Below are positions 53,335 through 62,703 of a stretch of 64,000 nucleotides of DNA, piece by piece (within the stretch, counting starts at the first letter, position 1; each line of letters begins with the position of its first letter). The DNA is taken from contig NZ_ATUJ01000012.1 of NCBI RefSeq assembly GCF_000420145.1, positions 1 to 64,000 of the forward strand, read 5' to 3'. The stretch comes from Paracoccus zeaxanthinifaciens ATCC 21588. Lineage in GTDB: Bacteria; Pseudomonadota; Alphaproteobacteria; Rhodobacterales; Rhodobacteraceae. The notes under the pieces were generated by a model. That model saw nothing but the letters and a program-made list of their open reading frames with translations, was not told the origin of the DNA and ran no database searches. Both the position numbers and the translations under genes were made by a program.

Positions 53335-54135
53335 ATGCGCAAGCTTGCGGATCTGGAACTGCGCAACATCGCGCTGGACGTGGACGGCATGGGCATCGCC
53401 ACGGTGACGCTGAACCGCCCGGCCAAGCGCAACGCGCTGGACATCGCCACCATCGAGGAACTGGTCGACATCTTCGCGGCCCTGCCCCACGAGGGCATCC
53501 GCGCCGCGATCCTGCGCGCCGAGGGGCCGCATTTCTGCGCGGGCCTGGACCTGGTCGAACATCACCGCGAGGAACGCTCGGCCGCGGATTTCATGCGCGT
53601 CTGCATGCGCTGGCACGAGGCGTTCAACAAGATGGAATATGGCGGGGTGCCGGTCATCGCGGCGCTGAAGGGCGCGGTCGTCGGCGGCGGGCTGGAACTG
53701 GCATCGGCGGCGCATATCCGTGTCGCGGGGCCCGATTGCTATTTCGGGCTGCCCGAAGGACAGCGCGGCCTGTTCACCGGGGGCGGCGCGACGATCCGCG
53801 TCGCGGACCTGATCGGCAAGGCGCGGATGATCGACATGATGCTGACGGGCAGGCTCTATGCAGGCGACGAGGCCGTTTCGGTCGGGCTGTGCCAGTACCT
53901 GGTCGAGGACCCCGAGACGAAGGCGCGCGAGCTGGCGGAACGGGCGGCGCAGAACCCGGCCCTGTCGAACTTCGCCATCTGCTCGGCCATCAGCCACATG
54001 CAGAACATGAGCGCGCTGGATGCGGCCTATGCCGAGGCGGTCGTCGCGGGGGTGGTGAACACGCAGGACGCCGCGCGCGAGCGGCTGGCAGCCTTCGCCG
54101 GCGGAACCGCCGCCAAGGTGCGCCCCGACAGCTGA
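53335..54135 (+). CDS. Enoyl-CoA hydratase/isomerase (crotonase) family protein
   Basis: A 266-residue crotonase-fold enzyme. The oxyanion hole is formed by [11 protein letters not shown] near 63-73 and [16 protein letters not shown] near 108-123. At the hydratase catalytic positions it has [16 protein letters not shown], with one Glu of the usual pair evident, so isomerase or hydrolase activity is as possible as hydration. GAGGAGGAACGGG is a strong ribosome site. Confidence 0.87.
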
Positions 54136-54145
54136 TCGGGGGATC

Positions 54146-54216
54146 GCCACGGTGTCGGCCATCGAGGCCGACGCCGTGGCGGCGCGCGGTCCGGCCTCGA
54201 TGGCCGGTCCGCGCGC
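54146..54216. repeat. Two head-to-head 15-bp hairpins with complementary loops
   Basis: Hairpin I has arms 54146-54160 and 54166-54180 (one T/G wobble) and loop ATCGA. Hairpin II has arms 54182-54196 and 54202-54216 (one mismatch) and loop TCGAT. The 13-base cores GGCCATCGAGGCC and GGCCTCGATGGCC are exact reverse complements, so the loops could kiss or the two hairpins refold into one long stem. They fill the gap between the convergent crotonase and exoD genes, with no T run. The layout recalls REP/BIME elements. Confidence 0.85.
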
Positions 54217-54237
54217 ACCCGTCCCATCGGCCGCGGT

Positions 54238-54816
54238 TCAGTGCAGCAGCGTCGTCAGCCCGGAATAGAGACCGCCGATCGCGGCAAATCCAAGGATCGT
54301 GAACACCCCGTCGCGTGCCAGCATCCCCAATGCCAACATGCTGACCATCCCGCCCAGGATGGACGAGGTGAAGGGGACCAGCTCCAGCACCGGCATGACC
54401 AGCCCCGCGATCAGGCACATCGCCTGCGTCACCCAGATGAACGGCCTGTGCACCAGGAACCCGATGCGCCGCGCCGTGATCCGGTCGAGAAACCGCGCGG
54501 GTCCGCGCATCCACCGGACCGCCGCCTCCAGCCGCTTCGACGGCAGCCTGCGCCGCATCAGGATGTCCGGCAGCCACAAGTGATCGCGCCGCATCAGCAT
54601 CTGCGCCGAGATGAGAAAGATCGCCGCCCCGCAGATCGTCGAGAAGAGCGGCACGCCCGACAGCGGCGACAGCACCGCCAGCGACGGCACCAGCAGATAG
54701 GCCGCAAGCGATCGCTGCCCCAGGGCCTCGACGACCTCGCGCAGGCTCGTCTCCTCGCCCGTCGCGGCCTCGCCGATCCGCTCGATCAATTCCTCGATAC
54801 TGTCCTGCGCGTCCAT
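54238..54816 (-). CDS. ExoD family membrane protein
   Basis: A 192-residue protein matching ExoD, first known from Sinorhizobium exopolysaccharide mutants. A cytosolic N-terminal helix (SIEELIERIGEAATG) precedes four or five membrane segments with LLVPSLAVLSPLSGVPLFSTICGA and LELVPFTSSILGG. Its molecular role is unsettled, with links to exopolysaccharide and alkali tolerance. It follows dapD in the same direction by 61 bases with a hairpin between. Confidence 0.88.
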   Translation of the reverse strand: MDAQDSIEELIERIGEAATGEETSLREVVEALGQRSLAAYLLVPSLAVLSPLSGVPLFSTICGAAIFLISAQMLMRRDHLWLPDILMRRRLPSKRLEAAVRWMRGPARFLDRITARRIGFLVHRPFIWVTQAMCLIAGLVMPVLELVPFTSSILGGMVSMLALGMLARDGVFTILGFAAIGGLYSGLTTLLH

Positions 54817-54835
54817 CGCCCCTCTCGTGCAGCCA

Positions 54836-61506: not shown

Positions 61507-61550
61507 CAGCGGGACACCCTTCCCCAACGAAGGGCTTCTAGCTGGAAGGC
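61507..61550 (+). promoter_or_regulatory. serC leader RNA with ribosome-site-sequestering alternative fold
   Basis: CAGC (61507-61510) pairs with GCTG (61541-61544) around an inner stem CCCTTC/GAAGGG (61517-61522/61529-61534). Alternatively CCTTCC (61518-61523) can pair with GGAAGG (61544-61549), which is the serC ribosome site. The folds exclude each other, as in a translational switch. A conserved serC RNA motif has been reported upstream of serC-serA in alphaproteobacteria; I believe this is it, but no alignment was possible. Confidence 0.55.
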
Positions 61551-61557
61551 TAAGCAC

Positions 61558-62703
61558 ATGAGCGATCATCCGATCCCGGCCACGCGGCCGGCAAACCCGC
61601 GTTTCTCGTCCGGCCCCTGCGCCAAGATTCCCCAATACGATCTGAACATGCTGTCGGACGCGCCCCTTGGCCGTTCGCACCGTTCCGCCGTCGGCAAGTC
61701 CAAGCTGGCCGAGGCGATCGACCTGACCCGCAAGGTCCTGGGCGTCCCCGACGACTACCGCATCGGCATCGTCCCCGGTTCCGACACCGGCGCGGTCGAG
61801 ATGGCGATGTGGACCATGCTGGGCGAACGCCCCGTGGAAATGCTGGCTTGGGAAAGCTTCGGCGAAGGCTGGGTCACCGACGCCGTCAAGCAGCTGAAGC
61901 TGGACGCCACCGTCCGCAAGGCCGATTACGGCCATATCGTCGACCTGGCCGAAGTCGATTTCGACCGCGACGTGGTCTTCACCTGGAACGGCACCACCAG
62001 CGGCGTGCGCGTGCCGAACGGCGATGCGATCCCGGCGGACCGCGCGGGCCTGACCATCTGCGACGCGACCAGCGCGGCCTTCGCGATGGAGTTGCCCTGG
62101 GACAAGCTGGACGTGACCACCTTCAGCTGGCAGAAGGTGCTGGGCGGCGAAGGCGCGCATGGCGTGCTGATCCTGTCGCCCCGCGCCGTCGAGCGTCTCG
62201 AATCCTATACCCCCGACCGTCCCCTGCCCAAGATCTTCCGCCTGACCAAGGGCGGCAAGCTGATCGAGGGCATCTTCAAGGGCGAGACGATCAACACCCC
62301 GTCCATGCTGGCGGTCGAGGATTACCTCGTGGCGCTGAAATGGGCCGAGGGCCTGGGCGGGCTGAAGGGCCTCGTGGCGCGTGCCGACGCGAATGCCAAG
62401 GCGGTCGCGGACTTCATCGCCGACAAGGACTGGATCGCGAACCTGGCCGCCGATCCCGCCACCGCATCGACGACCAGCGTCTGCGTGAAATTCACCGATC
62501 CGGCCATCAAGGACGGTGCGGCCTTCGCCAAGGCCGTCGCCAAGCGGCTGGAGAAGGAAGGCGTGGCGCTGGACGCCGGCGCCTATCGCGACGCGCCCGC
62601 GGGCCTGCGCATCTGGTGCGGATCGACGGTTGAAACCGCCGATGTCGCGGCGCTGATGCCCTGGGTCGAATGGGCCTATCGCGCCGAACTGGCCGCGCAA
62701 TAA
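61558..62703 (+). CDS. serC: Phosphoserine aminotransferase
   Basis: A 381-residue class V aminotransferase making 3-phosphoserine from 3-phosphohydroxypyruvate. The PLP lysine is Lys193 in [24 protein letters not shown] is the N-terminal phosphate-binding loop and [14 protein letters not shown] the cofactor Asp region. The form is the alphaproteobacterial long type. GGAAGG is its ribosome site. serA follows after 94 bases. Confidence 0.96.

Follow-up and report, generated by a model that had tools for sequence, protein, structure and literature searches.

A low-copy, REP-like palindromic element of Rhodobacteraceae with near-constant loops and freely changing stems, and its possible role at transcript ends

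We found that most of the gap between two convergent genes of Paracoccus zeaxanthinifaciens ATCC 21588 is taken up by a twin hairpin that recurs at other sites and in other genomes. Our best explanation, which we hold with about even confidence, is that the Rhodobacteraceae carry this twin hairpin as a low-copy, REP-like palindromic element, inserted at gene ends and in linkers, whose fold is kept as a two-way transcript-end structure. The window referred to here is the whole stretch of DNA analyzed, 64,000 nucleotides of contig NZ_ATUJ01000012.1 (positions 1 to 64,000, forward strand).

Positions 54145-54216 of the window consist of two abutting hairpins (37 and 35 nt) with loops ATCGA and TCGAT, set inside a short outer stem of G and C tracts. 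They fill most of the 102 nt between two facing stop codons: that of an enoyl-CoA hydratase/isomerase gene (53335..54135, plus strand; an open reading frame matching PF00378 at 6e-36), 9 nt before hairpin 1, and that of exoD (54238..54819, minus strand; an open reading frame matching PF06055 at 1e-44), 21 nt past hairpin 2. Hairpin 1 (hp37; 54145..54181, plus strand) contains 16 pairs, 15 Watson-Crick and one G-T, around the loop ATCGA at 54161-54165, and hairpin 2 (hp35; 54182..54216, plus strand) has a 15-position stem with one T-T mismatch around the loop TCGAT at 54197-54201. The 5' side of the outer stem is the tract GGGGG (54138..54142, plus strand), recognized by its pairing with the 3' flank across copies, and the 3' side is a C-rich tract (54218..54222, plus strand), recognized from the fold and an alignment of 29 copies. 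A prior sequence-only reading had described two near-perfect hairpins in a convergent gap, which is confirmed by the pairing, by comparison of the fold with shuffles, and by the lack of any twin in 100 shuffles; it had also placed the hairpins one base apart, but at full length they abut with no base between them. The exact complementarity that it reported for the hairpin cores holds, with the length of the cores corrected from 13 bases to 15 nt each (54156-54170 and 54192-54206), as does the mutual complementarity of the loops by sequence. Because one loop is the reverse complement of the other, the element reads alike on its two strands.

The predicted RNA fold of the element has an energy of -79.7 kcal/mol compared to -50.8 +/- 3.5 kcal/mol for shuffles (z -8.2), and the opposite strand (z -6.7) and a fold with DNA parameters (z -8.0) also lie far below their shuffles. 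Twins with the geometry of the window element, counted at a threshold of at least 13 + 12 Watson-Crick pairs, number two in the window, which are two registers of one place, compared to zero in 100 dinucleotide shuffles. The one long stem that had been proposed as another form is a possible fold but a disfavored one, at -61.3 compared to -79.7 kcal/mol for the twin hairpins. The remark that the element has no terminator tail proved accurate: a search of both strands of 53900-54500 found no T-tract terminator at the element, and the only terminator match, at 54272-54287 on the minus strand, lies outside it. Rfam gave no match above the gathering score at the window element or at the copies tested, and one copy (L052) has a sub-threshold match to SorX (22 bits compared to a gathering score of 46.6, E 0.29). 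A serC leader (RF00517, 62.9 bits) is located elsewhere in the window, at 61507-61558.

Further copies in the same genome had been named beforehand as the condition to look for, and three copies in total are recognized: the one in the window gap, one in another convergent gap, and one inserted in frame into ruvA, in the linker between its domains. A similarity search retrieved the second copy and a covariance model the third. A pattern made of the loops only matches four places in this genome, three of which are these copies. Across the genus, a match was found in at least 21 of 101 and at least 26 of 125 genomes (the latter at E 1e-4 or better), counts that are lower bounds because few candidates are scored per genome, 11 to 43 in the multi-genome model scans; some of the 26 genomes carry one-loop forms. 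When 32 loci were classified by their neighbors, 18 fell inside ruvA, 11 in the window gap, and two in an ABC transporter/CAP-like gap, with one unplaced. Carriers include Paracoccus sp. C2R09, P. indicus, P. homiensis, P. siganidrum, P. sediminilitoris, and P. onchidii. C2R09, which is 90.8% identical to the window over 6.2 kb, has the element at the same three sites, and copies also occupy a common site in species with 80-83% identity in the flanking hydratase. Most intergenic copies examined begin 7-110 nt past a stop codon. Among 17 matching stretches, 12 come from Paracoccus, one from an alphaproteobacterial metagenome-assembled genome (MAG) that matches the ruvA region of this genome, and four from other organisms; these four were treated as chance. 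In plasmid and phage collections no match reached 80% coverage of the query, the plasmid search returned a match to a Streptomyces plasmid, and the viral contigs searched gave 0 matches. Three other places were recorded on the way: a weak model match of 43.6 bits outside all three known sites (L091:2372-2474, G082:C77), a 17-bp perfect hairpin of unrelated sequence with a 3-nt loop (L213:181-217, genome G114), and a partly paired match to the ATCGA/TCGAT pattern in a Ramlibacter MAG (L097:2631-2679).

What the copies hold in common is their fold and their loops. We aligned 29 hand-chosen copies, all distinct, of fixed length, and passing a pairing filter, over 88 columns without gaps. Excluded were L073, which has three extra bases, L023, L024, L026, L077, L079, L092, L121, further decayed or shorter copies, the unplaced L091, and identical copies such as L098 and L099; L215, L220-L222, L275, and all copies outside the genus were found later and are absent. 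In this alignment 91.7% of cells are paired compared to 74.8% when shuffled, a percentage that the pairing filter inflates, while 144 cells compared to 42 are changed on both sides and covariation is 0.437 compared to 0.136. Changes on both sides occur in 25 of the 31 hairpin pairs (14 of 16 in hairpin 1 and 11 of 15 in hairpin 2), and sliding the partner by 1-3 columns lowers pairing to 38-51%. Since the selection of the 29 favored paired copies, the both-side changes outweigh the percentage paired as evidence. The whole outer helix is 71.7% paired; 28 of the 29 copies are paired at column 5 and likewise 28 at column 6, and its outer three pairs are weak. Conservation of the stems in relatives, to which the sequence-only reading had looked, is thus present as a structure kept with compensating changes. 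Of the 29 rows, 28 have TCGAT as the hp35 loop and one has TCAAT; ATCGA is the hp37 loop in 21, with three near variants and five rows in which it is lost; in L073 both loops are altered together (ATTGA/TCAAT). Arm length is 15-16 bp in nearly all full copies. Among eleven pairwise comparisons of copies that we chose, single changes predominate in six with few differences and double changes in four between more distant copies, and the second-gap copy of this genome differs from that of C2R09 by four double changes and one single. Wobbles at the window site have a slight strand bias (11 vs 7).

We also asked what relatives without the element have at these sites. At the window site, 7-13 nt separate the hydratase gene from the next gene in five relatives (exoD in L039, L040, and L042; yaiI in L029 and L047), and L031 has a 162-nt gap with no match, whereas gaps holding the element measure 78-143 nt. 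The second site measures 13 nt or less in 18 of 24 relatives and 30-539 nt in the other six, compared to 102 nt in this genome and 97 nt in C2R09, where it is filled. These short gaps suggest that the element was inserted, with loss in the relatives as the alternative, and together with the in-frame ruvA copies they support the mobile palindrome that had been suggested from the window.

The ruvA copy comprises 72 nt, or 24 codons, in frame, and 17 ruvA copies translate without a stop. In the P. homiensis protein the element falls between two parts that match a RuvA chain of known structure, 1bdx (residues 1-147 and 184-229), and Pfam domains were also matched. We compared 17 ruvA copies, whose choice depended in part on their pairing (there are also decayed copies), with 2,000 synonymous resamples each: for 14 of them, 0 or 1 resample pairs as well, and for L074, L075, and L078, all of which have lost the hp37 loop, the numbers are 91, 181, and 67. 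Since synonymous redraws almost never match it, the pairing of the intact ruvA copies is no by-product of coding. The remaining ruvA linkers, from sequences taken from 70 of the 100 genomes matching ruvA, contain weaker, decayed matches or none. Wobbles read on the non-coding strand of ruvA comprise 22 G-T compared to 3 A-C, and because they fall on the strand opposite the mRNA, it does not seem to be the ruvA mRNA on which selection acts. On a poorly resolved ruvA tree (72 rows, with 5 same-species rows dropped and presence labeled by hand), presence of the element requires 13 changes compared to about 20.7 in shuffles, a pattern that may reflect one old gain with many losses or several gains.

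Beyond the genus, model R3 matched at least 16 of 295 family genomes, essentially one per genus. By eye, six of the 16 have both signature-type loops (this genome, G125, G139, G153, G330, and G375; the full twin of G153 has ATTGA for ATCGA), five have a single signature hairpin (G169, G196, G201, G277, and G336), and the remaining five have neither loop or a hairpin in coding sequence, three of them in the same stretch. Other genera keep the layout and the loops while their stems are unrelated, and G375 has the element at eight places, with stems that vary among the copies. Of 385 genomes sampled across the class one matched, namely this genome, and absence in that sample is not proof because few candidates were scored per genome. 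The loop-only pattern matched 124 of the 295 family genomes compared to one match in one genome (G131) for a backwards-pattern control; most of the places listed look like coding sequence by eye, and the set tested for hairpins was that of G375 only. Neighboring genes were read for copies outside the genus: the G139 copy follows a citrate-transporter-like gene (Pfam), the G125 and G153 copies lie between putative transport genes (read from translations), and the G330 copy lies between formate-tetrahydrofolate ligase and folD-like genes, with the one-loop form of G336 at apparently the same gene pair, as judged by matching C-termini. Copies of G375 follow a glutamine-synthetase-like gene and an HD-domain gene, and one (L269) is located upstream of an acyl-transferase gene in an apparently divergent gap rather than at a 3' end. 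Some copies are flanked by genes that share a strand; for co-directional copies outside the genus, wobbles on the sense strand were scored at three loci of eight and amount to a single G-T and a single A-C, a number too small to weigh.

Several single hairpins in coding sequence were also noted. L279 and L294 (near 1500-1600) contain an in-frame TCGAT hairpin in a cysteinyl-tRNA-synthetase-like gene, between the catalytic and DALR matches, that encodes GIEPA-type residues as in ruvA. L288 (near 1490-1570) contains an in-frame TCGAT hairpin in an Ala/Pro-rich linker that runs from the lipoyl to the FAD domain of a lipoamide-dehydrogenase-like protein. L280, L286, and L287 (near 1500-1580), from three genera, share a coding stretch in which an ATCGA-loop hairpin is accompanied by another hairpin; the stretch is glycyl-tRNA synthetase beta in L280 and L286 (Pfam), and these hairpins may be coding chance.

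We propose that the element would insert shortly after the ends of genes and into the linkers between protein domains, and that selection would then maintain its folded form and its loops. At the window site, the twin hairpins would form the 3' end of each convergent mRNA, either directly or after trimming, and would there block 3'-to-5' exonucleases and insulate both genes, and the constant loops are probably read by a putative factor, hairpin by hairpin. Reading of each loop singly is suggested because one loop survives after its partner is lost. Since the element lies at gene ends, has no T run, and is strand symmetric, it is suited to a two-way transcript-end barrier, and the bidirectional transcript end or nuclease barrier raised by the sequence-only reading fits its positions. 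The evidence is against a role in mRNA only, given that the G-T wobbles of ruvA lie on the non-coding strand and the strand bias at the window site is slight.

A rather unlikely explanation in our judgment is that the element is a selfish or passenger palindrome without host function, the stems of which stay paired by template switching between arms during replication. As part of one report (PMC8794818) describes, perfect stems can both arise and be maintained by template switching, and the patchy presence of the element, its decaying ruvA copies, and its in-frame linker copies suit a passenger, as does the comparison of the second-gap copy with C2R09, the four double changes and one single change of which are what one-step copying predicts. 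However, single changes dominate in the six other comparisons with few differences, and the loops are near-constant, while template switching gives loops no protection and can invert a spacer, according to a portion of another report (PMC8604942). Moreover, all 36 twins with both signature-type loops have the ATCGA-type before the TCGAT-type, an order that the models and patterns used to fetch them favor, and copies occupy the same site in the species with the 80-83% identical hydratase. We consider unlikely a DNA-level site, at which hairpins extruded in double-stranded or lagging-strand DNA would be read by a nuclease, recombinase, or junction-binding protein; the strands do read alike, RNA-strand preference is little at the window site and reversed in ruvA, the DNA fold lies far below shuffles, and copies occur in coding sequence and in one apparently divergent region, but each genome has few sites and most of these are at the 3' ends of genes, which suggests transcription, no partner protein was found, and the Y1 transposase is absent in 11 of 12 carriers.

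An intramolecular kissing-loop RNA, in which arms of equal length lie side by side with their loops paired, would agree with the complementary loops, the 15-16 bp arms of nearly every full copy, the co-changed loops of L073, and the wobbles that some one-loop variants keep on one strand. We nevertheless regard it as improbable, since one loop is kept without its partner in L074, L075, L078, L090, L025, and L220-L222 within Paracoccus and in G196, G277, and G336 outside it, and the strict kissing complex of the sequence-only reading is weakened by these copies. To an ordinary pair of intrinsic terminators, or chance GC-rich hairpins, we give almost no credence: stop codons converge from either side and the genome is GC-rich, but there is no T tract, none of the 100 shuffles contained a twin, and the same loops and geometry recur in other genera as well as at unrelated sites, which contradicts it.

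Alongside the REP-like transcript-end element that we prefer, we tentatively raise a broader possibility, namely a hitherto undescribed class of mobile structured elements that inherits only its fold (equal arms, strand-symmetric loops, and an outer stem, with the letters of the stems free). Such elements might be recognized through their loops while folded as a single strand, whether of DNA or of RNA. They might serve as transcript-end devices where they land at gene ends, and proteins might have taken them up several times as linkers between domains (ruvA; possibly cysS and lipoamide dehydrogenase). Freely changing stems make the element nearly invisible to sequence searches, the usual way in which repeat families are detected. 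Because the turnover of its stems, the constancy of its loops, and its insertion sites can be traced across many species, the element provides a natural test of whether selection or template switching keeps palindromes perfect, of how REP-like sequences spread without their usual transposase, and of how a palindrome can become part of a protein.

We found no description of the element in the open-licence literature searched. REP/BIME sequences are among its closest known counterparts. According to parts of one study (PMC3733652), those with GTAG and CGTC tags are head-to-head palindromes near 3' ends, in convergent and co-directional gaps; some REPs are reported inside genes for DNA repair, and flexible linkers are considered as sites. 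The REP/BIME likeness drawn from the window stands for position and layout, gene-end location and head-to-head pairs both being found (L269 is the apparently divergent exception), and fails for the terminal tag and the transposase association. The copies share no terminal GTAG or CGTC tag at either foot (29-copy alignment, by eye), the stems of the element are 15-16 bp compared to 5-13 or 8-9 bp for REPs in those parts of the study (PMC3733652), and hypervariable stems, near-constant loops, and one to eight copies seen set it apart. The Y1 transposase (RAYT, PF01797) is absent from 11 of 12 carrier genomes tested, including this one, and present in G139, and therefore the element is no standard REP; our searches found no mobilizing enzyme for it. 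Rickettsia palindromic elements, about 150 bp long and in ten families, lie in frame inside protein genes, as stated in part of a further study (PMC10969869). Our element is likewise an in-frame palindromic insert in a protein gene (ruvA), but it is 72 nt long, has one well-supported coding site (ruvA), and has its fold kept by compensating changes. Cuckoo/CcsR RNAs and the TwoAYGGAY RNA also have paired hairpins with conserved loops and freer stems. Their loops differ from those of our element, which, in contrast to them, is known from DNA sequence alone and has no Rfam match above threshold. An intercistronic hairpin stabilizes the 3' end of pufBA mRNA in Rhodobacter, as described in a section of a published report (PMC10253847). 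The hairpins of our element are also found at gene 3' ends, some of them between same-strand genes. We know of no loop signature for puf-type stabilizer hairpins, and our element differs from them in being a dispersed, strand-symmetric twin.
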